A stretch of DNA of 60,191 nt from Clostridia bacterium (GTDB lineage: Bacteria > Bacillota > Clostridia > Oscillospirales > CAG-272). The notes below the pieces were generated by a model that saw only the letters and a list, made by a program, of their open reading frames with translations, searched no databases and was not told the origin of the DNA. Both the position numbers and the translations under genes were made by a program. Below are positions 18,430-56,452 of the stretch, in pieces. The number at the start of each line of letters is the position of its first letter. The stretch's first letter is position 1. The DNA is taken from NCBI GenBank assembly GCA_017547755.1, contig JAFYOX010000108.1:1-60191 (forward strand), in the 5' to 3' direction.

Positions 18430-18462
18430 TAGCTAAGAACTAAGAGTGAATAGTGAATAGCT
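18430..18462. repeat. Heptamer repeat element A (partial, one arm)
   Basis: Tandem heptamer-like units CTAAGAA, CTAAGAG, TGAATAG, TGAATAG follow the stop codon of the mannosidase gene. They match one arm of the complete elements at 32150, 45029, 49519, 54336 and 56344; the centre and second arm are missing. Confidence 0.55.
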
Positions 18463-18475
18463 GTTCATAGAAAAA

Positions 18476-18516
18476 CGGACTGTCTGTAGAAATACAGGCA
18501 GTCCGGATTTTTTTTA
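18476..18516. terminator. Bidirectional terminator
   Basis: A 13-bp stem CGGACTGTCTGTA (18476-18488) / TACAGGCAGTCCG (18493-18505) with one G-U pair and loop GAAA is followed by a run of T. It serves the mannosidase gene and the converging HAD gene, whose stop is at 18514. Confidence 0.9.
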
Positions 18517-19314
18517 TTCTGCGTCGATCTCCGCTTCGAGATCGGCGATGATTTTGGCAAGTGCACTGTCGTTGTTTGAGACCGTAATCCGCTTTGCGGC
18601 GGCTTTGACCGCCGGGATCGCGTTGGCAACGGCGTAGCCGATGTCGACCGCTTCCATCATGGAGAGGTCGTTTTCGTAGTCGCCGGCGCAGACGGTCGTG
18701 TGGATCGGATGTCCGTTTTCCGCAAGGATCGGCAGCATTTCGCGGAGAAGATCGCCCTTGCCGCTTCCTTTCGGATGGACTTCCAGACCTTCGACCCAGC
18801 TGAAGTCGAAATTGTAGCGGTCGCCGTAGCGCGGAACGAGGGCTTCGCGTGTCTTTTCGCCGTCATTCGGGTGCTGGCAGAGAATGATCCGGCACCACGG
18901 CTTTTCAAGATCGGCGAGGATCTCATCGAGACGCGGGAAATCCTCACGGTGTACGACGAATTCCTCCCTGTGGCCGCTCACGAGAATGTAGGTGACCTGC
19001 GGACACAGGTCGAGGAATTCGTGCAGGACGGAGAGAAAATCGTCTTCGAAAACCTTCGTGATGACGGGGGTCTTCGCGGGAGCATCGTACAGCATCGTCC
19101 CGTTGATGCCGACGACGTAGGTGTTGGGCTTGAAAGTGTCGGCGTATTTTTCGATGTACCACGGATAACGCCCGGACGCAACGGTCATCAGACCGCCGTT
19201 TTCCTGGAAATAGCGGATCGCGGCGGCGTTTTCCGGAGAAATTTCTCCGCGGTCGTTGGTGAGCGTTCCGTCAATGTCGGATAAGATGAGGTAACCTTTG
19301 AATTTGTTGTTCAT
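18514..19314 (-). CDS. Cof-type HAD-superfamily phosphatase
   Basis: The 266-residue protein has HAD motif I LSDIDGTLT (nucleophile Asp), motif II SGRYPW-type region (TVASGRYP), a conserved Lys around HPKGSGKGD and motif IV AGDYENDLSMM. This set and the large cap domain between motifs II and III define the Cof/IIB subfamily, which dephosphorylates sugar phosphates and cofactors such as FMN or PLP. It is the last gene of an operon with the GH10 xylanase and a serine hydrolase. ATG 19314 follows GGAGAA at a slightly long distance; an alternative ATG at 19344 overlaps the stop of the preceding gene, so coupling may also occur. Confidence 0.82.
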   Translation of the reverse strand: MNNKFKGYLILSDIDGTLTNDRGEISPENAAAIRYFQENGGLMTVASGRYPWYIEKYADTFKPNTYVVGINGTMLYDAPAKTPVITKVFEDDFLSVLHEFLDLCPQVTYILVSGHREEFVVHREDFPRLDEILADLEKPWCRIILCQHPNDGEKTREALVPRYGDRYNFDFSWVEGLEVHPKGSGKGDLLREMLPILAENGHPIHTTVCAGDYENDLSMMEAVDIGYAVANAIPAVKAAAKRITVSNNDSALAKIIADLEAEIDAE

Positions 19315-19337
19315 GATCGGTGTGTTCTCCGGAGAAT

Positions 19338-20750
19338 TCAGCATTTGTGACCGACGAGATCGACGGCTTCCCGGTCGAGCAGACCGCGGTTTTCGAAGTG
19401 AAGATTCAGCGTGTCTCCGTCGGCGGTGATGGTGTAGAGCATACGGTGCGGGCAGTTGAGGAAGCGGACCTTGAAGGTCAGTTTTCCGTCTTCCGCGCTG
19501 TAGGATGCGGCGGTGCGGCAGCGTTCCTTATCCGGGGTGGACATCAGATCGACGAGCTTCGGCTTGACCTTTTGTGCGACGATCATGCTTTCCGTATGGT
19601 GACCGTTTCCGGCACGGAGGACGTACTGATCCACGCCGTCGGAGAAGACCGCCTGCATTTCGTCGGCTGCGGTGTCGTATACGAAGTACACGCCCGTCCA
19701 TCCCATCGGATTTTCGTCGAGACGCCAGAAGGTATGTTCGAAACCTGCGGTTTTCTGTGCCGAGCCGATCGGAGCATAAACCGGAAGAACCAGCGCCGGG
19801 GAATCGTCTTCATCAAAGAGATGTTCCGCGAGTTCCATGACTGCGTCCATTTCGCGCTGCATATCGCCGAGCTCGGTCTGGATCGCAAAGACCATGTTGT
19901 GCTCCGGAAGGACCACGCAGAGCTGACCGAACGCACCGTCGCCGCGGAAGCCTTCGCGGTAGTTGCACCAGAACTGGAAGCCGTAGCCCGCGCACCAGTC
20001 GGGGGTACCGTTCATGGAGTTGTCGGAAACGGGGGAGGTCGCCGCGTTCACCCATGCTTCGGAGAGGAGGCGTCTGCCGTTCCATACGCCCTTGTGGAGG
20101 TAGAGAAGACCGAGCTTTGCGATATCGTCGGAGCAGACGTGGATGCCGCATCCGCCTTCGTTGGTACCGTCGGGAACGCGGTTCCAGCGGACATCGGTGA
20201 TGCCGAGCGGCAGGAAGAGCTTCCACGTCAGGAAATCGACGAGCTTCATGCCGGTGATGCGTTCGACGATGCAGGAGAGCAGGCAGGTCGCGCCGGTATT
20301 GTACGCGAAGTGCGTGCCGGGTTCGTAGACGACTTCCTGTGCGAGGAACGCACGTGCGGCGTCATCGGAGCGTACCATCGGATACATGACGCAGGAACGG
20401 TGACCGGTATTCATGGAAAGCACGTGCTTCACGCGCATTTTTGCGAGATTTTCGGAGACGGTTTCCGGAAGCTTGTCCGGAAAGAGGTCGACGATGCGGT
20501 CATCGAGCGAAACTTTTCCTTCGTCAACGAGGAAGCCGATCGCCGTGGAGCAGAAGCTTTTCGAGAGGGAATAGATTTCCCGCTTGTCGGTCGGCGAATA
20601 CGGTGCCGGCGCGATGCGGACGACCATGGCGTCGTTATGGAAGATCTGGAGAGTGTGGATCTCGTCGCGTTCCGGCTGGAATTTCGCGAAGAATTCGTTC
20701 AGTGCGCGCTTCGATACGCGCGGATCGGTGTAAACGGTGGATCTTGTCAT
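19338..20750 (-). CDS. Class C beta-lactamase-like serine hydrolase (CubicO/EstB type)
   Basis: The 470-residue protein has the penicillin-binding fold nucleophile motif SLSK (Ser61, Lys64), followed by VDEGKVSLDDRIVDLFP as in CubicO proteins. The second motif is YNTG (the Tyr-x-Asn position), in FAYNTGATCLLS. The C-terminal 150 residues form an added beta domain. Members are esterases, D-aminopeptidases or amide hydrolases; true beta-lactamase activity is unlikely. No signal peptide is present. Being between a GH10 xylanase and a sugar-phosphatase-like gene, an esterase that removes acyl groups from xylo-oligosaccharides is plausible but unproven. A weak ribosome site (TGAGGC) precedes the ATG. 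Confidence 0.8.
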   Translation of the reverse strand: MTRSTVYTDPRVSKRALNEFFAKFQPERDEIHTLQIFHNDAMVVRIAPAPYSPTDKREIYSLSKSFCSTAIGFLVDEGKVSLDDRIVDLFPDKLPETVSENLAKMRVKHVLSMNTGHRSCVMYPMVRSDDAARAFLAQEVVYEPGTHFAYNTGATCLLSCIVERITGMKLVDFLTWKLFLPLGITDVRWNRVPDGTNEGGCGIHVCSDDIAKLGLLYLHKGVWNGRRLLSEAWVNAATSPVSDNSMNGTPDWCAGYGFQFWCNYREGFRGDGAFGQLCVVLPEHNMVFAIQTELGDMQREMDAVMELAEHLFDEDDSPALVLPVYAPIGSAQKTAGFEHTFWRLDENPMGWTGVYFVYDTAADEMQAVFSDGVDQYVLRAGNGHHTESMIVAQKVKPKLVDLMSTPDKERCRTAASYSAEDGKLTFKVRFLNCPHRMLYTITADGDTLNLHFENRGLLDREAVDLVGHKC

Positions 20751-20780
20751 GATAAAGCCTCACTTTATATGTCTTGTATG

Positions 20781-22112
20781 TCAGAGAATGAATTTCTGTT
20801 CCATCGGGCCGGCGGTGACGTGGTAATAGCCCGTGTTTTCCTTATGGAAGCGGCGTTCTTCGGAGATTTCGCCGACGCGGACGTCGTAATCGCCGTAGTA
20901 GCCGTGGAAGTATGCATGTCCGGTGTCGTCCGTGATGAGAGAAACGTCGGTCGTCCATTCGTGACGGATGAGATCGTCGAGAACGTCGAACGCCGGTTTG
21001 TGGGTCATGTCGCTGCGGAGCAGTCCGGCGTGGAAGACGTTTTCGCCGCCGTATGCCATGCCGTCGACCATGTTCCACCAGACGATCGATTCCACGAATT
21101 CCCGACTGAACCACAGACGGTACATCCGGCGGACGAGTTCTGCCTGTACATCTTCGTCTTCTGCTTCGTTGGAATAGGACGGAACGGAGACTTCGGAAAG
21201 GTGGATCGGCAGACGGAATTCCGAATACAGACGGAAAATATCCATCGCGCGGTACGGATCGTAAACGGCGCGTTCCTGTGCTTCGCTGGAGGTGAAGGCA
21301 TGGAACTGCATCCCGATCCCCTCAATGGGGGTGCCTGCGGCGAGCCATCGCTTGAGCATGAGGTAATAGACGCTCTTGTCGCCGGTGTACTGTGATGCAC
21401 CGAAGGTTTCGAAGCAGCCCTCGTTCCAGAACAGGCGAGAATACGGGAAGTATTTTTTTGCGATATCAAAGCACCATTTTTCGTGACCCGGTTCGTCGCA
21501 GACGGGCAGATCGCGGCAGCCGAATTCGCCGTGGGCGTTGCGGTAAACGGTGTACATTTCGTTGATGACATCGAGGTCGAGGAGATCATCGCCGTAGCGT
21601 TCGGCGATTTCACGGCTCCGCTTTTCGATCGCCATTTTGAGCGAACGCCAGTCGCGCGGCATCCACTTCGGATTGAAGGAATTGTACATCAGGCAATGTC
21701 CCTTCATGCCGATGCGGTTTTCGGTGCAGTAATCCCGGATGAGGTCGAGCGCGGGACGGCGGTAGATGTTTTCGGAATCCTTCGCAAAGCGCGGATGTCC
21801 TTCTTCCGGTTCGAGCGTGTCCCAGTACAGCGGAAGCACGCCGTAGTTGAAGATGTCCGCGAATTTTTCACGGTAGAGCGTATTCCGGCGCTCGTCGCCG
21901 AACTGGTCGAGCAGGAACAGGGCACAGCCGAACTTGAATTCGTGCCGCGCGAGTTTCGCGCGTACCGGAACTCCGGCGAGCGGTTTGCCCTCACGGTCGA
22001 GGACTTTGACGGCGAACAGACCCTTGCGGTGGGTCTCGATGCCGCGTTCGATCATGGGATCGGTGAATTCGGAAAGCCGGTCGAAATGGGCGATGAGGTC
22101 TCTTCGGTTCAT
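20781..22112 (-). CDS. GH10 endo-beta-1,4-xylanase, intracellular
   Basis: The 443-residue protein has the GH10 catalytic pair: the acid/base in DVINEMY (Glu185) and the nucleophile in HLSEVSV (Glu307). WDTLEPEEG and MKGHCLMYN precede them as in other GH10 barrels. An N-terminal beta domain of about 60 residues with VLDREGKPLAGVPV comes first, a type seen in Ig-like-fused GH10 enzymes. There is no signal peptide, which fits an intracellular enzyme that trims imported xylo-oligosaccharides. AAAAGGAGG precedes ATG 22112. It heads the operon with the serine hydrolase and HAD phosphatase, and its promoter sits back to back with that of the next gene. Confidence 0.88.
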   Translation of the reverse strand: MNRRDLIAHFDRLSEFTDPMIERGIETHRKGLFAVKVLDREGKPLAGVPVRAKLARHEFKFGCALFLLDQFGDERRNTLYREKFADIFNYGVLPLYWDTLEPEEGHPRFAKDSENIYRRPALDLIRDYCTENRIGMKGHCLMYNSFNPKWMPRDWRSLKMAIEKRSREIAERYGDDLLDLDVINEMYTVYRNAHGEFGCRDLPVCDEPGHEKWCFDIAKKYFPYSRLFWNEGCFETFGASQYTGDKSVYYLMLKRWLAAGTPIEGIGMQFHAFTSSEAQERAVYDPYRAMDIFRLYSEFRLPIHLSEVSVPSYSNEAEDEDVQAELVRRMYRLWFSREFVESIVWWNMVDGMAYGGENVFHAGLLRSDMTHKPAFDVLDDLIRHEWTTDVSLITDDTGHAYFHGYYGDYDVRVGEISEERRFHKENTGYYHVTAGPMEQKFIL

Positions 22113-22158
22113 GGTATTTCCTCCTTTTCGGATGATAACGGTCATCGGTATTGCACCC

Positions 22159-22187
22159 ATTATAGCAAATCCGCCGCCGTTTTTCAA
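22159..22187 (-). promoter_or_regulatory. Promoter of the GH10 operon
   Basis: Minus strand: TTGAAA (22187-22182), a 17-base spacer and TATAAT (22164-22159). Its -35 box is only 10 bases from the -35 box of the divergent promoter at 22198, so one regulator could control both. Confidence 0.75.
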
Positions 22188-22197
22188 TACGATTCTG

Positions 22198-22226
22198 TTG
22201 ACGTGCCGGAAAATCCGCGGTATAAT
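22198..22226 (+). promoter_or_regulatory. Promoter of the 638-residue glycosidase-like gene
   Basis: TTGACG (22198-22203), a 17-base spacer and TATAAT (22221-22226), followed after 31 bases by the start codon with CGGAGGAG as ribosome site. Confidence 0.75.
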
Positions 22227-22257
22227 GAAAACAAAACTGCACTCCGGAGGAGATATC

Positions 22258-31121: not shown

Positions 31122-32153
31122 ATGAACAAACGTGAATGGTTCGCGCTTCAGGCGGATCCGGCAACGAAAAAGGGGATGCCGATCCTCTCGTTCCCGTGCG
31201 TGCAGCTCATGGGCATCAACGTCGGACAGCTCGTGGTAAATTCCGACTATCAGGGCGGCGGCATGGCAAAGATCGCGGAAAAATTCCCGTCGGCGGCGTC
31301 CGTTTCGATGATGGACCTGTCCGTGGAAGCGGAAGTGTTCGGCGCGGAAGTCGTTTTCGGCGATGACGAAGTTCCGAGCGTTACCGGCGCGCTTCTTGTG
31401 GACGAAGACGATGTGGACGCGCTCGAAGTGCCCGATCTTCCGGAATCCCTGGACGAAGCGGACGGAAGTATCGGCGGCAGATGCGTGACTTACGCCCGTG
31501 CGATCGCGCTTGCGAAGGAAAAGATCACCGACCGTCCCGTTTTCGCGGGCGTTATCGGCCCGTTCTCCCTTGCCGGACGTCTGATGGATATGACGGAGAT
31601 CATGGTCAACTGCTATGCGGAACCGGAAATGGTCGAAGCGGCGGTCGAAAAATGCGCGGCATTCATCACGAAATACATCAGGCTCATGCGTTCCGCAGGT
31701 GCGGACGGCATCGTCATGGCGGAACCGGCGGCAGGACTCATCTCTCCGGCGTTCAATCTGCAGTTCTCGATCCCGTTCATCCGCCGCATCATTGAAGAAG
31801 TCAAAACGGACGATTTCGCGTTCATCTACCACAACTGCGGCAACGTCGTGGAAGCGCAGATCGAGGATATCCTGACCCTCGGCGCGGATGCATACCACTT
31901 CGGCAACGCGATCGACCTGCCGAAAATGTCCGAAAAGATTCCGGAAGACGTGGTCTTCATGGGCAACATCGATCCCGTCGGCATCTTCTGCGGCAATGCG
32001 GACGCGGCGTACGAAGCGACGATGGATCTTCTCAAGAAGATCGGACACCGGAAGAACTTCATTCCATCCTCCGGCTGCGACGTTCCGGCGCACGCGAGCC
32101 TCGAAGCAACGGAAGCGTTCTACAAGGCAGTCGAAGACTACTATAGGGGCTAA
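31122..32153 (+). CDS. UroD-superfamily protein, likely corrinoid/methyl transferase (MtaA/CmuA type)
   Basis: The 343-residue TIM-barrel protein belongs to the uroporphyrinogen decarboxylase superfamily. It shows the zinc ligands of the methyltransferase branch: HNC (His237, Cys239) and SSGCD (Cys319), the HxCx(n)C pattern of MtaA/MtbA. HemE itself lacks this pattern, and its N-terminal substrate Arg motif is also missing here (the protein begins MNKREWFAL). MtaA-type enzymes move a methyl group between a corrinoid protein and a thiol such as CoM or tetrahydrofolate. No corrinoid protein or other pathway gene is adjacent. GCGGAGG precedes ATG 31122. The stop codon lies inside repeat element B. 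Confidence 0.78.
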   Translation: MNKREWFALQADPATKKGMPILSFPCVQLMGINVGQLVVNSDYQGGGMAKIAEKFPSAASVSMMDLSVEAEVFGAEVVFGDDEVPSVTGALLVDEDDVDALEVPDLPESLDEADGSIGGRCVTYARAIALAKEKITDRPVFAGVIGPFSLAGRLMDMTEIMVNCYAEPEMVEAAVEKCAAFITKYIRLMRSAGADGIVMAEPAAGLISPAFNLQFSIPFIRRIIEEVKTDDFAFIYHNCGNVVEAQIEDILTLGADAYHFGNAIDLPKMSEKIPEDVVFMGNIDPVGIFCGNADAAYEATMDLLKKIGHRKNFIPSSGCDVPAHASLEATEAFYKAVEDYYRG

Positions 32154-32283
32154 TGGCTAAGGACTAATGGTGAATGACTAATAACTAAACCGGACTTAAC
32201 GTCAGAAGGCAGACGGAAAGTCCGGTTTTAGTCATTCACAATTCACCATTCACCATTCACCATTCACCATTAGTCCTTAGTCC
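32150..32283. repeat. Heptamer palindromic element B
   Basis: The left arm (to 32186) has units such as GGCTAAG, GACTAAT, GGTGAAT. The centre is an 11-bp stem AAACCGGACTT (32187-32197) / AAGTCCGGTTT (32218-32228). The right arm is the inverse, with ATTCACC repeated four times and ending TTAGTCCTTAG. The element contains the stop codons of both flanking genes. The central stem followed by TTTT can also terminate transcription. Confidence 0.8.
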
Positions 32284-45018: not shown

Positions 45019-45028
45019 AATAAAAGGC

Positions 45029-45132
45029 GAATGACTAATGGTGAATGGTGAATGACTGGGATGGAATTTTATGTCAGCGGACGAACATACCGTCTATTAT
45101 AGTCCTTAACTATTCACCATTAGTCATTAGTC
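45029..45132. repeat. Heptamer palindromic element C
   Basis: Left arm GAATGACTAATGG with TGGTGAA units, centre containing TTTATGTCAGCGGAC, right arm TATTCACCATTAGTCATTAG. It lies between uvrC and the HPr gene, 10 bases before the uvrC start. On the minus strand the arm junction contains TATAAT, which might serve as a -10 box. Confidence 0.75.
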
Positions 45133-45184
45133 AAAACAAATTGAGCGAAGGTGGATCACCCTCGCTCAGGTTTGTTCAGTTCAA

Positions 45185-45940: not shown

Positions 45941-48900
45941 TTAAATCTTCTTGACAGTAACAGTGACCTTTTCGCCGTTGACGTCCCAGTCCTTGGTGAA
46001 GCCGTCGATGGCTTCGAAGACGAGGGAGTCGCAGAGGACGGTCTTGCAGAGTTCGTCGGAGTCGGCGCGGAGGATCGCTTCGATCTTTGCGCTGCCGGTG
46101 ACGGAAACTGCGATGTGGTCGGTAACGACGAAGTCCGCTTCCTTACGCATGGTCTGAACCTTGGAGATCACTTCGCGGACGAAGCCTTCGGTGATGAGTT
46201 CTTCGGTCAGGTTGGTGTCGAGAGCGACGGCGATGCCATTGTCCGCAAGGCTGAAGTAGCCTTCCTTCTGCTTCACGTCGATGAGGAGGTCGTCCTTGGT
46301 CAGTTCAACGGCCGCACCGTCGAAGTCGAGGCGGAGTGCGCCGGTGGAATCAAGTTCCGCCATTGCCTTGTTGCCGTCGAAATTGTCGTCCTGGAGGGTT
46401 CCGCGGATCTTGCCGAGGAGCTTGCCGTACTTCGGACCGACGGTCTTGAGGTTCGGCTTGAAGGAGTAAGAGGAAAGTGCGCTCATGTCGTCGGTGAAGA
46501 CAACTTCCTTGACGTTCAGTTCGTCGCGGATGATGTCGGTGAAGATGCCGTCCACGGTGATTTCGGACTTCACGTACATCGCTGCGAGAGGCTGACGGTT
46601 CTTGGTGTTCGCACCGTTTCTTGCCGCACGGCCGAGTACAACGATGTCAACAACGGTCTTCATGTTCGCTTCGAGTGCCTTGTCGATCATGGTTTCGTCC
46701 GCTTCCGGATAGCTGCAGAGGTGTACGGATACGGGCGCTTCCCTGTCAACGGAGCCGACGAGGTTGCGGTAGATGTCGTCCGCCATGAACGGGATGTGCG
46801 GAGCCGCTGCCTTCACAAGGGTAACAAGGCAGGTGTAGAGGGTCATGTATGCCGCGATCTTGTCGTCGGTCATTTCGGTGCCCCAGTAACGTTCACGGGA
46901 ACGGCGGACGTACCAGTTGGAAAGTTCGTCCACGAATTCGTAGAGAGCCTTTGCGGATTCGGGGATACGGTAGTTTGCAAGGTGATTGTCCACGGTCTTC
47001 ACGGTGGTGTTCATCACGGAGAGGATGTACTTGTCCATGACGGTGAGAGCGCAGTCCTTCAGTGCGTACTTCGTGGGATCGAATTCGTCGATGTCCGCGT
47101 AGAGTACGTAGAACGCGTAGGTGTTCCAGAGGGTGCTGAGGAACTTTCTCTGCGCTTCGGTAACGGCCTTGCCGGAGAAGCGGGACGGGAGCCACGGTGC
47201 GGAGTTGGTGTAGAAGTACCAGCGGATCGCGTCGGCACCGTAGGTGTTCAGTGCGTCGAACGGGTCAACGGCGTTGCCCTTGGACTTACTCATCTTCTGA
47301 CCGTTTTCGTCCTGTACGTGACCGAGAACGATGACGTTCTTGTAGGGAGAGCAGTCGAAGAGAAGCGTGGAGATCGCCATGAGGGAGTAGAACCAGCCTC
47401 TGGTCTGGTCGACCGCTTCGGAGATGAAGTCAGCCGGGAACTGAGCCTTGAAGAGGTCTTCGTTTTCGAAAGGATAGTGATGCTGTGCGAACGGCATGGA
47501 GCCGGAGTCGAACCAGCAGTCGATAACTTCGGGTACACGGTGCATTTCGCCGCCGCATTCCGGACACTTGAGAGTTACTGCGTCAATGTAGGGACGGTGG
47601 AGTTCGATGTCTTCCGGGCAGTTGTCGGACATGGACTTGAGTTCCGCGATGGAGCCGATGGAGTGGCGGTGACCGCAGGAGCATTCCCAGATGTTGAGAG
47701 GAGTACCCCAGTAGCGGTTACGGGAGATCGCCCAGTCCTGAACGTTTTCGAGCCAGTCGCCGAAGCGTCCCTTACCGATGGATTCGGGGATCCAGTTGAC
47801 GGTGTTGTTGTTGCGTACGAGATTTTCGCGCACGTCGGTCATCTTGATGTACCAGGATTCGCGTGCGTAGTAGATCAGGGGAGTATCGCATCTCCAGCAG
47901 TGCGGGTATTCGTGTTCGAACTTCGGCGCGTCGAAGAGCTTGCCTTCCTTGTCGAGGTCGACGAGGACCATCGGGTCAGCCTTCTTGACGAAGGTGCCTG
48001 CGTAGGGAGTTTCGGCGGTCATGTTGCCGGCGCCGTCAACGAACTGAACGAACGGGAGGTCGTACTTGCGGCCGACCTTGGCGTCGTCTTCACCGAATGC
48101 GGGAGCGATGTGAACGATACCGGTACCGTCGCTCATGGTGACGTAGTTGTCGCAGGTCACGAAGTGCGCCTTCTTCTTCTGACGTTCGGCAGCTTCGCCG
48201 GCACAGGAGAAGAGGGGTTCGTATGCCTTGTGTTCAAGGTCGGTACCCTTGTATTCTTCGAGGATGGTGTATGCGGGAGCGTCTTCGGTCTTGAGCTTGC
48301 CGAGAACGTTGTCAAGCAGGGCCTTTGCCATGTAGTAGGTGTAACCGTCAGCGGCAGCGACCTTGCAGTAGGTTTCTTCGGGGTTCACGCAGAGCGCGAG
48401 GTTGGACGGGAGAGTCCACGGAGTCGTGGTCCATGCGAGGAAGTATGCGTCTTCACCGACGACCTTGAAGCGGACAACGGCGGAGCGTTCCTTGACGGTC
48501 TTGTAGCCCTGGGCAACTTCCTGTGCGGAGAGCGGAGTACCGCAGCGCGGGCAGTAGGGAACGATCTTGAAGCCCTTGTAGAGGAGACCCTTGTTCCAGA
48601 TTTCCTTCAGTGCCCACCATTCGGATTCGATGAAGTTGTTGTCGTAGGTAACGTAGGGATTGTCCATGTCCGCCCAGAAGCCGACGGTGCCGGAGAAGTC
48701 TTCCCACATGCCCTTGTACTTCCATACGGATTCCTTGCATTCCTTGATGAACGGTTCGAGACCGTACTGTTCGATCTGTTCCTTGCCGTCGAGACCGAGC
48801 TTCTTTTCGACTTCGATTTCTACGGGGAGACCGTGGGTGTCCCAGCCGGCCTTACGCGGAACGTCCATGCCCTTCATCCAGTGGTAGCGCGGGATCATGT

Positions 48901-49096
48901 CCTTGATAACACGGGTGAGAACGTGACCGATGTGCGGCTTGCCGTTTGCGGTCGGAGGACCGTCGTAGAAGGTGTAGCCCGGGCGGCCTTCGCTCTGGGA
49001 AAGCTGCTGTTCAAAGATCTTGTTTTCGTTCCAGAACTTCAGAACTTCGCGTTCGCGTTCGACAAAGTTCAGGCTGGTATTGACTTTGTTGTACAT
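45941..49096 (-). CDS. ileS: Isoleucyl-tRNA synthetase
   Basis: The 1051-residue class I synthetase charges tRNA-Ile. It shows the HIGH motif (PHIGHV), the KMSKS motif (QKMSKSKGNAVDPF), the CP1 editing domain, the anticodon-binding domain and zinc-type Cys pairs (CPRCG, CSCGH, CPECGG). The length and sequence resemble the longer, eukaryote-like IleS type that tends to resist mupirocin; that resistance is an inference. I chose ATG 49096 because the aligned N terminus (VNTSLNFVEREREVLKFWNE) begins there. The frame continues upstream only through the T-box leader. There is no Shine-Dalgarno sequence at the start. Strong codon bias indicates high expression and causes a long antisense frame. Confidence 0.97.
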   Translation of the reverse strand: MYNKVNTSLNFVEREREVLKFWNENKIFEQQLSQSEGRPGYTFYDGPPTANGKPHIGHVLTRVIKDMIPRYHWMKGMDVPRKAGWDTHGLPVEIEVEKKLGLDGKEQIEQYGLEPFIKECKESVWKYKGMWEDFSGTVGFWADMDNPYVTYDNNFIESEWWALKEIWNKGLLYKGFKIVPYCPRCGTPLSAQEVAQGYKTVKERSAVVRFKVVGEDAYFLAWTTTPWTLPSNLALCVNPEETYCKVAAADGYTYYMAKALLDNVLGKLKTEDAPAYTILEEYKGTDLEHKAYEPLFSCAGEAAERQKKKAHFVTCDNYVTMSDGTGIVHIAPAFGEDDAKVGRKYDLPFVQFVDGAGNMTAETPYAGTFVKKADPMVLVDLDKEGKLFDAPKFEHEYPHCWRCDTPLIYYARESWYIKMTDVRENLVRNNNTVNWIPESIGKGRFGDWLENVQDWAISRNRYWGTPLNIWECSCGHRHSIGSIAELKSMSDNCPEDIELHRPYIDAVTLKCPECGGEMHRVPEVIDCWFDSGSMPFAQHHYPFENEDLFKAQFPADFISEAVDQTRGWFYSLMAISTLLFDCSPYKNVIVLGHVQDENGQKMSKSKGNAVDPFDALNTYGADAIRWYFYTNSAPWLPSRFSGKAVTEAQRKFLSTLWNTYAFYVLYADIDEFDPTKYALKDCALTVMDKYILSVMNTTVKTVDNHLANYRIPESAKALYEFVDELSNWYVRRSRERYWGTEMTDDKIAAYMTLYTCLVTLVKAAAPHIPFMADDIYRNLVGSVDREAPVSVHLCSYPEADETMIDKALEANMKTVVDIVVLGRAARNGANTKNRQPLAAMYVKSEITVDGIFTDIIRDELNVKEVVFTDDMSALSSYSFKPNLKTVGPKYGKLLGKIRGTLQDDNFDGNKAMAELDSTGALRLDFDGAAVELTKDDLLIDVKQKEGYFSLADNGIAVALDTNLTEELITEGFVREVISKVQTMRKEADFVVTDHIAVSVTGSAKIEAILRADSDELCKTVLCDSLVFEAIDGFTKDWDVNGEKVTVTVKKI

Positions 49097-49111
49097 GATG
49101 TGATTTTTTTC

Positions 49112-49164
49112 TTGGGAGAAACCCGGTGATGGAAATTTCTCCCAAACCCCTTTCAAAAAACTTT
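49112..49164 (-). promoter_or_regulatory. GAAAGGGG-hairpin leader of ileS
   Basis: Minus strand: AAAGTTTTTTGAAAGGGG (49164-49147), one base, stem TTGGGAGAAA (49145-49136) / TTTCTCCCAA (49121-49112), then 15 bases to the start codon. It lies downstream of the T-box terminator. Confidence 0.55.
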
Positions 49165-49230
49165 GATAATGATAAGATGATTGGGTTGGGTGCGGATTGT
49201 TTGTATATGAAATTTGCGGAATGTGCGCAA

Positions 49231-49478
49231 AAAAACAAAAAAATCCCGGATATGTCCGGGACAGAAGGATTCTGTTATACCACTCGCACACATGATACGT
49301 CTCCGGGGTAACGGTCGGATTCCGGTACAGGCTACTTTCCGCTGTCCGAAGGGAAGAGGATTTTGCTGTACGGCTCGGGAAGGATTTTCTGCGGTCTTGT
49401 CGTACCGGCTTCCACCAATGCCGGCTCTCTGGAACGACGGGGAACTGCGTACTCTTTTCCGTCAATGCCTTTGGATTT
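49231..49478 (-). promoter_or_regulatory. T-box riboswitch (tRNA-Ile) controlling ileS
   Basis: On the minus strand, after the promoter, stem I begins near 49452 (GTACGC) and closes at 49373-49368 (CCGTAC). It includes AGAGAG and the distal loop GGTGGAA (49416-49410), and an ATC isoleucine codon at 49385-49383 at the expected specifier position on the 3' side. The antiterminator bulge TGGT (49282-49279), in GAGTGGTATAACAGA, can pair with the ACCA end of uncharged tRNA-Ile. A terminator, CCCGGA/TCCGGG (49260-49245) followed by seven T, ends the switch. Uncharged tRNA should allow read-through into ileS. Confidence 0.85.
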
Positions 49479-49507
49479 ATTATATCGTAGATTTTGGGTT
49501 TTGTCAA
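49479..49507 (-). promoter_or_regulatory. Promoter of ileS
   Basis: Minus strand: TTGACA (49507-49502), a 17-base spacer and TATAAT (49484-49479), directly before the T-box leader. Repeat element D starts 12 bases upstream. Confidence 0.85.
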
Positions 49508-49518
49508 GGGCTAAATTT

Positions 49519-49618
49519 GACTAAGGACTAATGGTTAAGGGTGAATGACTATAACAAATCGTCCGTCAGCCGGAGAATGTGAAGTTTAACATAGTCATTC
49601 ACCCTTAGTTCTTAGTTA
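49519..49618. repeat. Heptamer palindromic element D
   Basis: Left arm GACTAAGGACTAATGG with GTGAATG, centre CGTCCGTCAGCCGGAG with GTGAAGTTTAAC, right arm AGTCATTCACCCTTAG. The centre is the reverse complement of that in element E. It occupies the space between the divergent ileS and alpha/beta hydrolase promoters. Confidence 0.8.
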
Positions 49619-49635
49619 TTAACCTCAAATATGTC

Positions 49636-49705: not shown

Positions 49706-50455
49706 ATGTATACCTATTCCGAATTCTGCGGATTCAAGCGTGCGGACTTTAAATTCGAAGACCGCGACGCCCTCATCGTTTTCCCGGAAAAGCCCGAACC
49801 TCAGGGACGGTGGATGATGAAAATGGAATATTTCGGTGCGTTTCCGGCTCTGGAAGCGGAACTTCTGCGGCGCGGATGGCATCTCTGCTGGCTCCGCAAC
49901 GTCAACCGCTGGGGAACCGATATCGATTCCGACGCAAAGGCACGCTTTGCGGACTTCATCGCGGACGAATTCGGGCTGGAACGGAAGTTCACCTGCGTCG
50001 GCATGAGCTGCGGCGGCATCTGCTCGGTCAATTTTGCGGCACGGCACCCGGATTATACCGCGCTTCTGTACCTCGACGCGCCGGTGATGAACCTGCTGTC
50101 CTGCCCGATGGGCTTCGGCGTGGGCAACGCTCTCGGCGAAAACGGCAGTGGCTGGCAGGAGATCGTGGACGCATACGGCTTTGATCTGCCGACCCTTCTG
50201 ACGTGGAGAGAACACCCGATCGACAAGATCCCGATCCTCGCGGAGCATAAGATCCCGGTCGCGCTCGTCTACGGCGACTCCGACCCGGTGGTACCGTACG
50301 TCGAAAACGGAATTGTTCTGGAAAAATATTATAAGGAACACGGTCTGCCGCTCTTCTGCGAAGGCAAGGTCGGATGCGGACACCATCCGCACGGTCTGGA
50401 AGATAATACCAAACTTGCGGATTTTATCGAACAGTGGACGAAGGCGCAGCACTGA
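49706..50455 (+). CDS. Alpha/beta hydrolase, family unassigned
   Basis: The 249-residue protein has the nucleophile elbow VGMSCGGIC (Ser in GxSxG), the acid in VYGDSDPVVPY and the His in GCGHHPHG, so the triad is complete. The fold is minimal, without a lid insertion. There is no signal peptide. CGGCGGAGG precedes the ATG and a consensus promoter lies 41 bases upstream. The next gene, encoding a TIR protein, starts 27 bases after the stop and has no promoter of its own that I can see, so the two may be co-transcribed. Substrate unknown. Confidence 0.72.
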   Translation: MYTYSEFCGFKRADFKFEDRDALIVFPEKPEPQGRWMMKMEYFGAFPALEAELLRRGWHLCWLRNVNRWGTDIDSDAKARFADFIADEFGLERKFTCVGMSCGGICSVNFAARHPDYTALLYLDAPVMNLLSCPMGFGVGNALGENGSGWQEIVDAYGFDLPTLLTWREHPIDKIPILAEHKIPVALVYGDSDPVVPYVENGIVLEKYYKEHGLPLFCEGKVGCGHHPHGLEDNTKLADFIEQWTKAQH

Positions 50456-51522: not shown

Positions 51523-52509
51523 ATGTTAAAAGTAGCAATGCTCTCGAAGTGGCACGTACATGCCGGCGGTTACGCGAATTTCGTAAAGAACTGCGGCAAG
51601 TGTGAAATCGTTGCTGTATGGGATGACGACGCTGAACGCGGCAAGGCATGGGCAGAAGAACTCGGATGCGAATTCGTACCCTGCCTCGACACTCTTCTCG
51701 CACGTGAAGACGTAGAAGCGGTTGTATGCGACGCTCCCACCACCGAACACAAGGACATCCTTGTAAAAGCTGCGAAGGCCGGCAAGCACATCTTCACCGA
51801 AAAGGCGCTCTGCCCGACCGTTGCGGAATGTCTCGAAGTCAAGAAGGCAGTCGAAGAATCCGGCGTTACCTTCGTTATCAGCTATCCTCAGCGCGGCAGA
51901 CCGTGCGTTCAGTTCGCAAAGAAGATGATCGCGGAAGGCGCGTTCGGCAACATCACCCTCGTACGTACCCGTGACGCTCACTCCGGCGTATCCGGCGACT
52001 GGCTCCCGGAATACTGGTTCGACAAGAGCAAGGCAGCCGGCGGCGCAATGATGGACCTCGGATGCCATCCGATGTACCTTCTCGCATACTTCCTCGGCAA
52101 GCCGAAGAGAGTGACCGGTATGTTCACTGCACCTTACGGCAAGCCCGTTGACGAAAATGCAGTAGCGATCGCTGAATTCGAAGGCGGCGCACTGGGTGTA
52201 GCGGAAACCGGTTTCGTTTCCCACAATTCTCCCCAGACCATCGAAATCTACGGTACCAAGGGTTCCATGATCGCGCACGGCGAAGACGTACAGTTCTCCA
52301 GCCAGGCGATCGGCAGCGTAGTCGGCGGCTTCATCAAGCCTGACCTCCCGCGCGGCAAGAAGTCTCCGCTCGAACAGTTCGTTGACGCGGTTATTGCAGG
52401 CACCGGTTCTCCGGAAGGTCTCGGCATTGACGATGCGATCGCGCTTACCGAGCTTCTTGAAAACTCCTACAAGGGCGACGAAAATAACGCGATTATTGAG
52501 ATTCAGTAA
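51523..52509 (+). CDS. Gfo/Idh/MocA-family oxidoreductase
   Basis: The 328-residue protein has a Rossmann start MLKVAMLSKWHVHAGGY, in which the classical GxGxxG is degenerate, then VAVWDDD. The catalytic-site motif is TEKALCP, where Lys is kept and the Pro of EKP is Ala. The second domain has GGAMMDLGCHPMYLL with Asp and His. It probably oxidises or reduces a sugar-like substrate with NAD(P). Strong C/A-ending codon bias indicates high expression. CGGAGG precedes the ATG. It stands alone and ends in a perfect terminator. Confidence 0.8.
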   Translation: MLKVAMLSKWHVHAGGYANFVKNCGKCEIVAVWDDDAERGKAWAEELGCEFVPCLDTLLAREDVEAVVCDAPTTEHKDILVKAAKAGKHIFTEKALCPTVAECLEVKKAVEESGVTFVISYPQRGRPCVQFAKKMIAEGAFGNITLVRTRDAHSGVSGDWLPEYWFDKSKAAGGAMMDLGCHPMYLLAYFLGKPKRVTGMFTAPYGKPVDENAVAIAEFEGGALGVAETGFVSHNSPQTIEIYGTKGSMIAHGEDVQFSSQAIGSVVGGFIKPDLPRGKKSPLEQFVDAVIAGTGSPEGLGIDDAIALTELLENSYKGDENNAIIEIQ

Positions 52510-52521
52510 TTTAAAAGGAAG

Positions 52522-52545
52522 AAAAACGACCTTACGGTCGTTTTT
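52522..52545. terminator. Terminator of the 51523 oxidoreductase gene
   Basis: Palindrome AAAAACGACC (52522-52531) / GGTCGTTTTT (52536-52545), loop TTAC. The same hairpin occurs at 60074-60097, so it is part of, or hitches with, the repeat that follows both. Confidence 0.9.
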
Positions 52546-52553
52546 CAATTAAT

Positions 52554-53063
52554 GTCCTGCGCGGACGGCTGCACAATGGAGTTTCACTTCGTGAACCTCC
52601 GGTCTCCGGCGCGAGACCTCTTATGAATCTCCCGCGCTGGGAGACCCAACGGGTCTCCGGAAGCCCTTCGGGCGGATTGTTTTGGTTCAGCTGTGGGGTG
52701 GAGAATACGAACGAGACGAACGTACCGTCCGTATGGGAAGAAGATTCTGGCTGACCGCCGGGGGTTAAGGGTGGCGTTTGTTGCTTTATCTGAAGGAACA
52801 TCCGCTGTTTAGTGAAGAATAACGTTCACTATTGCTTTATTAAAAGATAACCTCCACCGCTGTTTCTACTGAACGTACGCTTTGGACAAATCTGCACCCA
52901 ACTTCGTAATTTCCGAACGGTCTGCCGCAGGAAAACCGCTGTCTGTCCGAGGCCCAAAGGCCGAGTCCCCCGAACGAAGGAGAATCCAAGGGGGAACCCC
53001 CTTGGTCGGGGTGATTCACAAGAGGGCCACGACTGGTCCTCTTGTGCGCCGTCCGCGCAGGAC
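52554..53063. repeat. 510-bp hairpin-rich element bounded by 16-bp inverted repeats
   Basis: GTCCTGCGCGGACGGC (52554-52569) and its exact inverse (53048-53063) bound a gene-free stretch. Inside are hairpins such as GAGACCC/GGGTCTC (52641-52657), CCAAGGGGG/CCCCCTTGG (near 52990) and ACAAGAGG/CCTCTTGT (near 53020-53046). There are also two copies of a GCTTTATnnnAAAGAnAACnTCC-like segment in the middle (near 52780-52870). Small frames here have no support. The 26 bases at 52636-52661 recur exactly at the right edge of the window. Confidence 0.6.
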
Positions 53064-53130
53064 AAAGAAAAAAATAAGATAAATAAAAAATCTGTAAGAT
53101 AAACTATAAAAGAAGAAAACCAAAATAAAT

Positions 53131-54342
53131 ATGTTTAAAACAGTGATCCTCGCCGTGATGGCGTTCAACCTCGTCTATGACCTCACGATGCGCCTCCTCT
53201 CGGTGCGGCAGAAGAAAAAGCCCCTGCCGGAAAACGTCCGCGATATCTACGAGGAAAAGGAATACGCCCGCTGGCGCGGGTATTCCGCCGAAAAATCCCG
53301 CGCAGGACTCGTCAGTACCCTCGCGGACTTCGTCCTCGGACTCCTTCTCTTCGGTACCAACGTCCTCTCGGCGGTGTATTACGCCCTGCCGGGCGGTGAG
53401 TACGCAAAGTCCGTCCTGCTCATGCTCCTCTACGCCGCCTTCCTTACCCTCTGGTCGATCCCGTATGAGTATTACGTCACTATGAGGATCGAAGGGAAGT
53501 ACGGCTTCAACAAGACCGGCCGGAAAACCTTCGTTACCGATACGATCACCAATTTTCTGGTGAATTCCGTCGTGAATCTCGCGCTGATGTGCTTCGCCAT
53601 GTTCATGTTTGAAAAGATGGGCGCGAAGTTCTTCCTCGTCCTCTATGCCTTTATCGCGGTGTTCATGCTGGCGGTGAATATGCTTTCCATGACCTTCATG
53701 CGCCTCTTCAACAAGTTCACGCCCCTTCCCGACGGCAGTCTGCGCGACCGCCTCGTGAAAATGTTCCGCGATGCCGGGTACGAGCTCTCCGATATCCGCG
53801 TCATGGATGCTTCCAGACGTACGACAAAAGTCAATGCGTTCTGCACGGGGCTCGGGAAATTCAAGAAGATCGCGCTGTATGACAATCTTGTGGATAACTA
53901 CACGGAGGAAGAGATCGCGGCGGTGTTCGCGCATGAGCTGGCGCATTTCAAACACCGGGATACCGCGAAAATGACGGCGTACAACCTCTTCACGATGGCG
54001 GCGCTGACCGCGATGATCGCGGCGTTCGCCCTGATCCCGCAGATTTCGATGGATTACGGCTTCGCGGACGTCAATTTCGCCTTTGCGATCGCCGCGCTGA
54101 CGGGCGTCCTGCTCACGCCGGTGATGACGGTCTTACAGATCCCGGCGGCGTTCTTCGGACGGCGGTACGAATACCGTGCCGACCGCATGGCGGCGGAGCT
54201 CGGCTACGGGGACGCGATGGTGACGGTGCTGAAGAAGCTGACGCGCGACAATTTCGCCGATCTGAACCCGCATCCGGTCATCGTCGCGCTGGAACACAAT
54301 CATCCGACGGTGAGCGCGAGAATAAAGAATATTATGGACTAA
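53131..54342 (+). CDS. M48-family membrane metalloprotease (Ste24-like)
   Basis: The 403-residue protein has an N-terminal M48_N membrane region with about four helices, then the zinc motif FAHELAHFKHRD (HExxH) and the third ligand region RRYEYRADRMAAE. Further helices lie between them. This is the layout of CAAX protease 1/Ste24, wider than the HtpX group. It cleaves membrane or lipid-linked peptides. The ribosome site is weak (AGAAGAAAA). The last codon and the stop come from repeat element E. YqeG follows in the same direction. Confidence 0.88.
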   Translation: MFKTVILAVMAFNLVYDLTMRLLSVRQKKKPLPENVRDIYEEKEYARWRGYSAEKSRAGLVSTLADFVLGLLLFGTNVLSAVYYALPGGEYAKSVLLMLLYAAFLTLWSIPYEYYVTMRIEGKYGFNKTGRKTFVTDTITNFLVNSVVNLALMCFAMFMFEKMGAKFFLVLYAFIAVFMLAVNMLSMTFMRLFNKFTPLPDGSLRDRLVKMFRDAGYELSDIRVMDASRRTTKVNAFCTGLGKFKKIALYDNLVDNYTEEEIAAVFAHELAHFKHRDTAKMTAYNLFTMAALTAMIAAFALIPQISMDYGFADVNFAFAIAALTGVLLTPVMTVLQIPAAFFGRRYEYRADRMAAELGYGDAMVTVLKKLTRDNFADLNPHPVIVALEHNHPTVSARIKNIMD

Positions 54343-54443
54343 GGACGAATGGTTAAGGATGAATGACTATGTTGAACTTCACGTAGTCCGGCTGACGGAC
54401 GTTTTGCTATAGTCATTCACCATTCACCCTTAGTCATTAGTCC
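54336..54443. repeat. Heptamer palindromic element E
   Basis: Left arm GGACTAAGGACGAATGG with GATGAATGACTAT, centre CACGTAGTCCGGCTGACGG, right arm AGTCATTCACCATTCACCC ending TTAGTCATTAGTCC. Its centre is the inverse of that of element D. The stop TAA of the M48 protease is inside it, and it ends 12 bases before the YqeG start. Confidence 0.8.
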
Positions 54444-54455
54444 AGGGAGATACAC

Positions 54456-54959
54456 ATGATTTTAGAAAAATACCTCATCCCCGACGAGATGGTCGACCGG
54501 TTTGAATGCGTCACGCCGGAACATCTGCTGTCGATGGGGAAGAAATACATCATCTGCGACATCGACAATACCCTGGCGACGTACGACGACCCGACGCCGC
54601 CGGAAAACGTGGTGGCGTGGTGTAAGAATATGAACGAAAAGGGCGTAACCGTGGCGTTCGTGTCGAACAATCACGCGGAACGCGTTGCACTTTTCAACAA
54701 AAACTTCGGCTACGTCGCGTACGCGGACTCGCATAAACCCGGCACGAAGAAGCTGAAGATGGCAATGCGCGACCTCGGCGCGACCACGGACAACGCCGTC
54801 CTTCTCGGCGACCAGCTCCTGACCGACGCGGCGGCGGCAAAGACCGCGGGACTGTACTGCATCATCGTTCCGCCGATCAGGGACAAGAAAAACCTGTTCT
54901 TCCGCTTCAAGCGGTGGATCGAAATCCCGTATGTGAAGAAATACCGGAAAATGCATTGA
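54456..54959 (+). CDS. YqeG-family HAD IIIA-type phosphatase
   Basis: The 167-residue protein matches YqeG: ICDIDNTLATYDDPTPP (HAD motif I), FVSNNHAERV (motif II), KPGTKKLKMAM (Lys, motif III) and LLGDQLLTDA (motif IV). Some members dephosphorylate phosphatidylglycerol phosphate (as in GEP4/PgpB-like roles) and others are linked to ribosome assembly in Firmicutes. The C-terminal basic, aromatic tail (FFRFKRWIE) fits membrane association. CAGGGAGA precedes the ATG. A terminator follows. Confidence 0.88.
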   Translation: MILEKYLIPDEMVDRFECVTPEHLLSMGKKYIICDIDNTLATYDDPTPPENVVAWCKNMNEKGVTVAFVSNNHAERVALFNKNFGYVAYADSHKPGTKKLKMAMRDLGATTDNAVLLGDQLLTDAAAAKTAGLYCIIVPPIRDKKNLFFRFKRWIEIPYVKKYRKMH

Positions 54960-54974
54960 CAAATAAAAACAAAC

Positions 54975-55012
54975 CCGGCGTACGTCAAAAAAACGTACGC
55001 CGGTTGTTTTTC
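54975..55012 (+). terminator. Terminator of the YqeG gene
   Basis: Perfect 11-bp stem CCGGCGTACGT (54975-54985) / ACGTACGCCGG (54993-55003) followed by TTGTTTTT. Confidence 0.9.
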
Positions 55013-55062
55013 TGTATCGGATGTGCCCGATGACCTTGTATTGTCTGAATTTTGTCGTACAT

Positions 55063-55198
55063 CTGTAGGGGCGATTCACGAATCGCCCGTCTGAAAAATC
55101 GGACAAAACCATATTTTATCGACCGGAACGAACGATTTGATCACAAAATTCGGTTTGTTGAAATCGATAAACGGGCGATTCGTGAATCGCCCCTACAG
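55063..55198. mobile_element. MITE-like element with 28-bp perfect terminal inverted repeats
   Basis: CTGTAGGGGCGATTCACGAA and eight further bases (55063-55090) are exactly inverted at 55171-55198. Each arm also contains its own palindrome, GGCGATTCACGAATCGCC. The 80-base core is AT-rich and non-coding. Elements with GTAGGGGCGA-type ends are known in many bacterial genomes. No clear target duplication is visible, and no transposase is in the window. Confidence 0.8.
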
Positions 55199-55254
55199 GA
55201 TTCGAATCAAATGCTGTTCGTCCGAAGGTTTTTCGGAAGCGCGTCCCCTTCTCC

Positions 55255-56322
55255 TTAAATCTCGATCAGTTCCTTCGGGCAATTCGTCAGATTGCGCTTG
55301 CCGCCGGGAGTAATCAGCACCATGTCTTCGATGCGGCAGCCGTACTTGCCTTCGATGTAGATGCCGGGTTCGACGGTGATGATCTGACCGGCCTTGAGGG
55401 TGGTGTCGCCCATGCCGCCGGATACGCCGGGCTGTTCGTGGATCTCGAGACCTACACCGTGACCGAGGGAGTGACCGAAGTAACCCTTGTAGCCTGCGTT
55501 GTCGATGAGGTCGCGCGCGATCTTGTCCATGTCCGCGTTCTTTGCGCCTTCGGTGATCGCATCGATCGCCGCGCACTGTGCTGCCAGAACGGTGTTGTAG
55601 AGACGGGTGATCTCTTCGTCCGCCTTGCCGATCACGATCGTACGGGTCATGTCGGAGTGGTAGCCGTTGACCACTGCGCCGTAGTCCATCGTCAGGAAGC
55701 CCTTTTCCAGCTTTACCGGACGCGGTACGCCGTGCGGTCTCGCCGATGCCGTGCCGGAGACGGCGATGGTGTCGAACGACGGCTTTTCACTGCCGTTCTT
55801 CTTCATATAGTATTCCAGTTCCGCCGCAACTTCCGTTTCGGTCATGTTGTAGTTGATGACCTTCAGAATGTGCGCGAATGCACCTTCCGCGATGCGCTGC
55901 GCCGCTTCCACGGACGCCACTTCGTCCGGGGTCTTGATCGAGCGGATCTCGGTGAAAATGCCGCCGATCGGGCAGAATTCCACGCCCATGCCGTCGAGGG
56001 TCTTCTTCAGACCGGCGAGGGAAGAGCAGGTCATGCGGCGGTCTTCGTAGCCGAAGTTCTTGATATTGCAGTCGCGGACGACTTCGTTCAGGGTCGGCTT
56101 GCCGGGCAGGCATACTTCAAAGCCTTCGCGTGCGTCGGCACGTGCCGCTTCGATGTAGCGGAAATCGGCGAAAACGTACGCCTTTTCCTTCGTGATGACG
56201 AGGTGACCGTCGGGATTGTCCACGCCGGACATATAGAGGTGGTTTTCCGCGGAATTCACGTAGATCGCGTCAAGGTTCATCTCCGCCATTTTTGCGCGGA
56301 GAGCGTTCAGTCTTAAGTTCAT
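55255..56322 (-). CDS. Xaa-Pro aminopeptidase (M24 family)
   Basis: The 355-residue enzyme removes N-terminal residues before proline. The N-terminal creatinase-like domain (1-125, MNLRLNALRAKMAEMNLDAI) is followed by the pita-bread domain. That domain has metal ligands in TMDYGAVVNGYHSDMTRT (two Asp), SLGHGVGLEIHE (His), VEPGIYIEG (Glu) and RIEDMV (Glu), so all five are present. It binds two Mn or Zn ions in the cytoplasm. CTGGAGA precedes the ATG. Repeat element F lies directly upstream. Confidence 0.93.
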   Translation of the reverse strand: MNLRLNALRAKMAEMNLDAIYVNSAENHLYMSGVDNPDGHLVITKEKAYVFADFRYIEAARADAREGFEVCLPGKPTLNEVVRDCNIKNFGYEDRRMTCSSLAGLKKTLDGMGVEFCPIGGIFTEIRSIKTPDEVASVEAAQRIAEGAFAHILKVINYNMTETEVAAELEYYMKKNGSEKPSFDTIAVSGTASARPHGVPRPVKLEKGFLTMDYGAVVNGYHSDMTRTIVIGKADEEITRLYNTVLAAQCAAIDAITEGAKNADMDKIARDLIDNAGYKGYFGHSLGHGVGLEIHEQPGVSGGMGDTTLKAGQIITVEPGIYIEGKYGCRIEDMVLITPGGKRNLTNCPKELIEI

Positions 56323-56343
56323 ACAAATCTCCAGTTCAGATTT

Positions 56344-56452
56344 TGACTAATGACTAATGGTGAATGGTGAATGACTATGGCCGGACTTTACGTCTGTCGG
56401 CTGACATAAAGTTTGGATATAGTCCTTAGTCCTTCACCCTTAGTCCTTAGCC
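56344..56452. repeat. Heptamer palindromic element F
   Basis: Left arm TGACTAATGACTAATGG with GGTGAAT units, centre CCGGACTTTACGTCTGTCGG with CTGACATAAAGTTTGG, right arm AGTCCTTAGTCC, CACCCTTAGTCCTTAG. It lies between pepP-like and solute-binding genes on the same strand. Confidence 0.8.

Follow-up and report, generated by a model that had tools for sequence, protein, structure and literature searches.

The 60,191-nucleotide stretch of Clostridia bacterium DNA analysed here (the window, contig C105 of genome G000) carries five complete copies and one half copy of a dispersed palindromic element whose arms are built of seven-base units, and we lean towards the view that these heptamer palindromes, met here in a small number of gut bacteria, are a small non-autonomous mobile element resembling miniature inverted-repeat transposable elements (MITEs). 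The ends of such an element would be two inverted arms, each of about four degenerate heptamers and an inner TGACTAT, with about 38 bp of core between them. An enzyme encoded elsewhere would recognise the arms as double-stranded DNA and copy the element into A/T-rich sites, and a copy landing within the final codons of a gene or immediately after the stop codon would end the reading frame and spare the next ribosome-binding site. Because the frame would be closed at once and the ribosome-binding site spared, such insertions would survive, and the stop codons in the arms would then reflect tolerance. Like MITEs, the element is short, lacks coding capacity, has inverted terminal arms and is present in many dispersed copies, and one of its sites in the window, that of copy D, is empty in two sister species, G004 and G013. 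The comparison set consisted of 40 genomes, namely G000 (assembly of 3.05 Mb, judged 75% complete) and 39 relatives.

The elements form a family with a nearly fixed length and a strict arm grammar

An earlier note on the window had described the five complete copies and the half copy as variations on one plan, and reading of the sequences, a MAFFT alignment and a parser searching for two inverted arms of NRRYKAA units all confirm this. The parser made 77 calls in the loci supplied, within the window exactly the five complete copies, and none in 313 kb read backwards (the window and 29 fetched stretches). The length and placing counts given below are based on 72 non-redundant parsed copies, 26 of G000 and 46 of G004. 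The length was 108, 109 or 110 bp in 52 of these, the remainder ranging from 95 to 137 bp. Each arm consists of four NRRYKAA units and the inner TGACTAT, and the arms stand around a core of about 38 bp. From the outside inwards, two units mostly in CTAA are followed by a third in CTAA or GTGAA and a fourth mostly in GTGAA, then by TGACTAT, and there are two dialects, set by G or A at unit position 2. The units are in tandem, but they are not near-identical units in variable number, being degenerate and, in 52 of 72 copies, of constant total length. The features of the window are as follows.

32147..32283, no strand: complete copy A, 137 bp, between convergent genes
45025..45133, + strand: complete copy B, 109 bp, upstream of uvrC (start 45018, minus strand)
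49518..49625, + strand: complete copy C, 108 bp, in a divergent gap
54336..54443, - strand: complete copy D, 108 bp, flanked by genes for an M48 peptidase (53131 or 53143 to 54342) and a HAD-like protein (54456-54959)
56344..56453, - strand: complete copy E, 110 bp, between co-directional minus-strand genes, an M24 peptidase gene (55255-56322) and 56491-58752
18430..18464, + strand: solo arm (half copy), TAGCTAA GAACTAA GAGTGAA TAGTGAA TAGCTGT, of the A-dialect, 1 bp past the stop of a GH38 gene
18476..18515, + strand: intrinsic-terminator-like hairpin and T run, occupying the place of the core and right arm after the solo arm

In the window alignment the copies have common arms and a common core, with GTCAGC or its inverse in most cores, and the octamer AATGACTA has 11 occurrences in the window where 0.79 would be expected, a number reached by none of 100 shuffles. 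The earlier note had also described unit number as varying between copies, as slippage would lead one to expect. Since the length is nearly fixed, slippage does not apply in general. The exception is the 137-bp copy at 32147, whose four ATTCACC units (in the 32240s) had been correctly pointed out as those of a copy B, the half copy being counted there as A. A simple-sequence origin, in which polymerase slippage lengthens and shortens heptamer arms on either side of a hairpin, would suit single copies like that at 32147-32283, with its four consecutive TGGTGAA, as well as two sites common to sister species that are shifted, in the best register, by one and by two units; slippage was proposed for heptamer repeats by Mrazek et al., as reported in the available text of MacGregor 2015 (PMC4679880). 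Elsewhere, however, arm length is fixed, substitutions keep the grammar, unit types have preferred places in the arm and the core is common to dispersed copies, so that we regard this origin as very improbable.

A covariance model built from 14 copies, in which RNAalifold retained only 8 pairs, gave 54 matches in G000, which correspond to 27 places matched once per strand; 14 of these places were in the model and 13 were new. The earlier note had named as refuting its claim the absence of further copies, or a core not shared beyond chance; neither was observed, because further copies exist and the core is common. Across the 40 genomes, at E 0.001 or better, only G000, G004, G013 and G029 matched and the other 36 did not. 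G004 gave at least 109 matches (about 55 places), a lower bound because this number equals that of the candidates scored, G013 gave 11, and G029 gave 3 that belong to another family. The exact inner pattern, searched over GTDB species genomes, was found in 14 stretches, 13 of them in the metagenome-assembled genome Oscillospiraceae bacterium SIG618 (records of the window itself possibly being omitted); the lone match in Candidatus Desulfobulbus rimicarensis had no heptamer arms, lay near the reckoned chance level and was discarded. In 391 genomes sampled from the class without G004 and G013, the grammar pattern matched G000 25 and 22 times and five other genomes 1-3 times, while its backward control matched nothing in any row of the sample. 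Rfam 15 gave no match in the window at the gathering score. Phage or plasmid carriage was rejected, the searches of IMG/VR with the exact inner pattern, of plasmids with copy E and of phages with copy C all being empty.

Arms supply stop codons to the genes in front of them

With genes predicted by a self-trained gene caller, our own script, none of the 72 copies lay more than half inside a predicted gene, compared with 87% of random placements in the same stretches. The claim of the earlier note that a palindromic heptamer family is dispersed between genes in both orientations is supported. Sixty copies occupied co-directional gaps, 7 divergent and 5 convergent ones, the corresponding numbers for all 389 gaps of at least 20 bp being 278, 59 and 52. 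The stop-side edge was found at -21 to +6 bp of the stop codon in 60 of 70 cases. Forty stop codons lay within the element, 33 of them exactly at -7, -14 or -21, where unit one, two or three ends; the stop codon of the M48 peptidase gene, for example, is supplied by GGACTAA, the first unit of copy D. Start-side edges (n = 74) were at 12-35 bp in 45 cases, nearer in 4 and farther in 25. Among the 60 co-directional copies, 52 were at +6 or less of the stop versus 41.2 ± 2.8 for uniform landing within the same available space, a simple null of our own. A stop codon is present in 534 of 552 units. As the unit is 7 bp long and nearly every one includes TAA or TGA, 28 bp of most arms contain a stop in each of the three reading frames (121 of 138 arms; duplicate copies are still included in these two counts). 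Stop-codon arms would thereby give a concrete reason why a repeat of seven bases, and not of 6 or 9, suits an element living between tightly packed genes. The first three bases beside the element are 81-88% A/T.

The placing also bears on whether the elements are transcription terminators, possibly bidirectional. The core of copy A and the long versions found in a more distant species, G003, do look terminator-like; judged by eye, however, a GC hairpin with a T run behind it is missing from most of the listed cores. Of the 72 copies, 60 lie between co-directional genes, and 50 of these 60 are 6-45 bp from the next start codon. A terminator function is thus very improbable.

One site is empty in sister species, and common sites turn over within the grammar

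The window is syntenic with contig C176 of G013 and, over part of its length, with C99 of G004, mostly at 76-90% identity, and the parser found no element on 68 kb of the G013 contig. The comparison of filled and empty sites, which the earlier note had proposed for close strains, was made here between species. Site D measures 36 bp in G013 and 30 bp in G004, with an overlapping ATGA stop/start and no element; the neighbouring gene is 92% and 87% identical in amino acids to its counterparts in G013 and G004, respectively. In G000 the element is present and the C-terminus is new. Judged by eye, the two genes directly adjoin each other, with no element, in 11 of the 17 other species listed, the remaining 6 having a different upstream neighbour. 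In the opposite direction, 34-38 bp of G000 correspond to each of three G004 copies, two on C47 and one on C99. Copy D is 90% identical to the copy at position 12979 of G000 contig C88, the top value of 325 pairs among the 26 parsed G000 copies (median 67%), a similarity that recent copying would give and that suggests a young pair; in G004 the place of the C88 copy is taken by 137 bp without arms.

Twelve sites are filled in two species (11 in G000 and G004, 1 in G000 and G013), and there the mean flank identity was 82-90% and the core identity 45-85%. With the register chosen for each arm pair so as to give the fewest differences, 120 sites were compared at every unit position. Changes numbered 47 at position 1 (36 of them G/T), 37 at position 2 (35 A/G), 23 at position 3 (22 A/G), 10 at position 4 (8 C/T), 12 at position 5 (9 G/T), and 10 and 7 at positions 6 and 7, so that arm changes at common filled sites mostly keep the grammar. 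Given such flanks, drift seems far from sufficient to produce the T/G changes seen at 36 of 120 position-1 sites. The differences per arm, out of 35 bases, varied from 0 to 14, with a mean of 6.1 and a variance of 13.8; between the copies L084 2988 and L099 9844 the right arm was identical over 35 bases and the left differed at 11 and was of another dialect. Six of the 12 common sites were 80-89% identical, above the 95th percentile (78%) of G000-G004 element pairs, and the other six were 67-74% identical, within the bulk of such pairs. This turnover would be accounted for if copies exchange sequence with one another or if insertion recurs at a given place.

Inverted motifs are kept, but not complementary copy by copy

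The palindrome is a matter of inverted motifs, each window copy folding well as it stands: folded as single DNA strands, the five complete copies gave z values of -5.9 to -11.5. Within copies, left and right arms were identical at 1090 of 1512 positions (0.721) versus 1098 ± 16 (0.726) in shuffles, which is no excess, and core halves were no more complementary than shuffled halves (565 vs 572 ± 16). The arms of one copy agreed at position 2 more often than shuffles (170 of 216 vs 128) and at positions 1, 4 and 5 less often (81 vs 99, 154 vs 166 and 145 vs 157 of 216), and no compensatory stem changes were seen within copies, either in arms or in core halves. Sense RNA folded no better than antisense (60 copies, mean difference +1.24, standard deviation 8.2). 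Since arms and cores are not complementary copy by copy, a maintained hairpin is unsupported, and we rejected an RNA hairpin as a maintained feature.

The two arms of one copy in fact tend to differ. Of 54 copies with a core of 50-55 bp, 51 could be oriented, and in 35 of these position 5 of the third unit is G on one side and T on the other (G/G 10, T/T 5, A/T 1). The arms are also unlike relative to transcription, the third unit having at position 1 G30/T10/A4 in the 5' arm versus T28/G13/A2/C1 in the 3' arm of 44 copies; by arm swapping the whole-arm asymmetry had a p of 0.0002, and two single positions had familywise values of 0.004 and 0.029.

These data allowed us to weigh a functional intercistronic element, in which arms and core act in the mRNA or in translation between operon genes and copies are kept for that reason. 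It would accommodate the 60 of 72 copies in co-directional gaps (versus 278 of 389 gaps of at least 20 bp), the arm difference by transcription side (third unit position 1, familywise p 0.004, 44 copies) and the retention of arm grammar at common sites. On the other hand, neither arms nor core halves show an excess of complementarity, positions 1, 4 and 5 agree even less than shuffles, and the sense RNA has no folding advantage. Moreover, cores at common sites are, at 45-85% identity, no better kept than flanks, the same genes stand in sister species with no element between them, and the ten scanned proteins of the window are of unrelated Pfam families or of none. We therefore consider such a role unlikely, if the most serious competitor of a MITE-like element.

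Candidate enzymes and the case against mobility

If the element moves by transposition, as we suppose, some protein would have to recognise its arms. A reverse transcriptase writing the heptamers was rejected as a candidate: RVT_1 is absent from the element-bearing genomes G000, G013, G003 and G029, and it is present in G004, in G037 and in 17 of the 40 genomes overall. Y1 transposases, present in 15 of 40 genomes, were likewise set aside, G013 and G003 having none and G000 a weak match, which led to a RAYT-like gene tied to other palindromes. This 166-aa protein of G000 matches NCBIfam REP_Tyr_transpos with 68.9 bits (cut-off 80) and PDB 4er8 TnpArep with E 0.0022, and for these matches we considered a repetitive extragenic palindromic (REP)-type element moved by it as single-stranded hairpin DNA. 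However, the RAYT-like genes of G000 and G004 contig C93 adjoin GTAGGG palindrome pairs and not heptamer elements, the flanks of the elements are without a GTAG or CGTC tag, and G013 and G003, both incomplete, carry elements without a match to the protein, which makes this route quite improbable.

The two genes (L196:3286-3977 on G000 contig C89 and L108:13412-14116 on G004 contig C93) lie beside what appear to be GTAG-type REPs in Oscillospiraceae; palindromes were looked for beside these two genes, and G004 has a further RAYT-like gene on C113. The available text of a 2013 survey of GTAG repeats names other phyla (PMC3733652).

Several observations weigh against a MITE-like mobile element. 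A transposase or autonomous partner with such ends was not found in the stretches read, the search having covered fetched stretches and not whole genomes. The G004 regions fetched for distant arms, where a longer element with a gene between two arms might lie, mostly contained half, interrupted or composite elements, and reading frames were listed for two of them and not searched against families. The RAYT-like protein is no substitute, since its genes adjoin other palindromes and its presence (12 of 40 genomes, including G000, not G013 or G003) does not track the element. The target-site duplication test gave a weak 2-4 bp excess spread over offsets and no clean duplication. Several element-less sites hold other sequence and so are not clean empty sites, and the species are too diverged to show exact junctions. 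Copies A, B and C are common to G004 but not to G013, which means that some absences may be losses. The asymmetry of the arms could reflect polarity of insertion, or else a role in the transcript, and would tell against mobility if that role were in RNA or translation. Finally, the genes were called by a self-trained script.

Heptamer arms with other cores in related species

Generic NRRYKAA arrays were prominent in G003, G029 and G037 beside G000, G004 and G013; the backward control was not free of hits for A/T-only dialects, and it gave 4 in G029. In G003, another, more distant species of the genus, 12 of 20 chosen stretches had inverted arms within 260 bp, with AACGAA/AGTGAA or GAATTAA/GAATGAA units around another core, including 99-bp elements at L287:1176 and L290:926, and longer versions that enclose a terminator-like hairpin. 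The fixed length is not seen there, because lengths run from 56 to 242 bp; stop-side edges fell within -20 to +14 of stop codons in 18 of 23 cases, two of which are one place counted twice.

Tentatively, and with less confidence than for the MITE-like reading, we suggest as a possible generalisation that this order has a wider class of mobile palindromes whose hereditary principle lies in the arms and not in the core, which in G003 is palindromic but unrelated. A dedicated enzyme would then recognise or write the heptamer arrays. Cores would then be free to hold terminators, and 6 of the 12 common sites look overwritten, with arms that look rewritten in blocks. If this were true, stop codons in every frame would serve as landing gear, and the class would be a new kind of bacterial mobile element.

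Variant forms were also encountered. Heptamer arms of other dialects with other cores are present at L114:1013-1141 (G001), L118:519-666 (G012) and L122:1036-1188 (G015), the first two cores including a terminator-like hairpin. A small hairpin like CCGACCTTCCCTTCGGGAAGTCG sits inside G004 elements at L095:19450-19480, L235:8710-8748 and near 40330 of contig C47, as if it were a second mini element; in the G004 element L240:780-1101 the core is interrupted by a larger palindrome with GTAGGGAGCGGCGCC ends, a nested insertion. At L238:884-930 and L241:895-935 two arms are joined without a core, probably as deletion products.

Relation to known repeats

Heptamer composition is also known from the STRR heptamers of cyanobacteria, small Nostoc repeats and the heptanucleotide repeats of tRNA-Leu introns, some of them in stem arms. 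The earlier note knew of no named family with this design, and none was matched in our searches; the design is not without precedent, however, because inverted heptamer pairs are in print for Xanthomonas (PMC4692102). In the available text of that paper (Rehm et al. 2015), GGGAATC repeats form 70 and 75 close inverted pairs in two genomes, which resemble our elements in their heptamer arrays and inverted pairing. They differ in that their units are G-rich and quadruplex-capable, in arrays of variable number and, as far as that text goes, with neither a shared core nor a fixed length, whereas here the units are A-rich and degenerate, about four per arm, around a family core. The TAACTGA direct repeats of Beggiatoaceae, Cyanobacteria and Bacteroidetes, whose three-frame stops were already noted by their author (MacGregor 2015, PMC4679880), are likewise A-rich, mostly intergenic heptamers, some of which overlap the upstream stop; the available text describes one exact unit repeated in direct orientation, with a single inverted case among 170, located for the most part shortly before start codons and with no core. 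The GTAG/CGTC REPs (Di Nocera et al. 2013, PMC3733652) are dispersed palindromes too, and heterodimers are favoured over homodimers in most of their families, which recalls the unlike arms here. According to the same partial source they are 20-40 bp long, have a tag outside the stem and a RAYT adjoining GTAG; our elements, in contrast, are about 108 bp long, have no tag and flank no RAYT. MITEs and small mobile repeats such as the RU elements (103-168 bp, PMC2759123) share the size of about 100 bp, inverted arms, absence of a gene and variable presence. The difference from them is that here the arms are heptamer arrays, and no parent transposon or target duplication was found. In the literature searched, which was mostly freely readable, we met no element that joins a fixed length and a family core to unlike arms and stop-codon landing. 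In several phyla heptamer repeats have been described and their origin left unexplained; here they make up both ends of a well-delimited dispersed element that has an empty site, follows a strict grammar and turns over at a rate that can be measured. The element makes the spread of heptamer arrays, and the question why seven bases, open to test.

Copies in the window and their neighbours

The ten window proteins scanned belong to unrelated Pfam families or to none. In copy A the right arm is enlarged to eight units, both neighbouring stop codons lie within the arms, and a terminator-like hairpin, AAAACCGGACTT..AAGTCCGGTTTT, makes up the core, judged by eye and by folding; the orthologous site is filled in G004, and G013 has a different 115-bp hairpin. 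The core of copy B carries GTCAGC on the + strand, and its site is filled in G004 and holds 39 bp of other sequence in G013. Copy C has on its left a class I tRNA-synthetase-domain gene on the minus strand (45941-49507 in the list of open reading frames, start at 49096 by our own gene calls) and on its right an alpha/beta-hydrolase-like gene on the plus strand starting at 49706; its site is filled in G004, and in G013 there are 698 bp of other sequence. The core of copy D is oriented opposite to that of copy C, as the earlier note had stated for its D and E, which are the copies at 49518 and 54336 when the half copy is counted as A. In place of copy E, G013 has 46 bp of other sequence, and G004 has 237 bp in which a tRNA-Val gene lies beside a short inverted stretch of heptamer-like character (L159:1190-1303 on C99 for the two together); this stretch may be a remnant of an element. 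At the place of the solo arm, G013 has a longer hairpin-like sequence in which no arm was seen.

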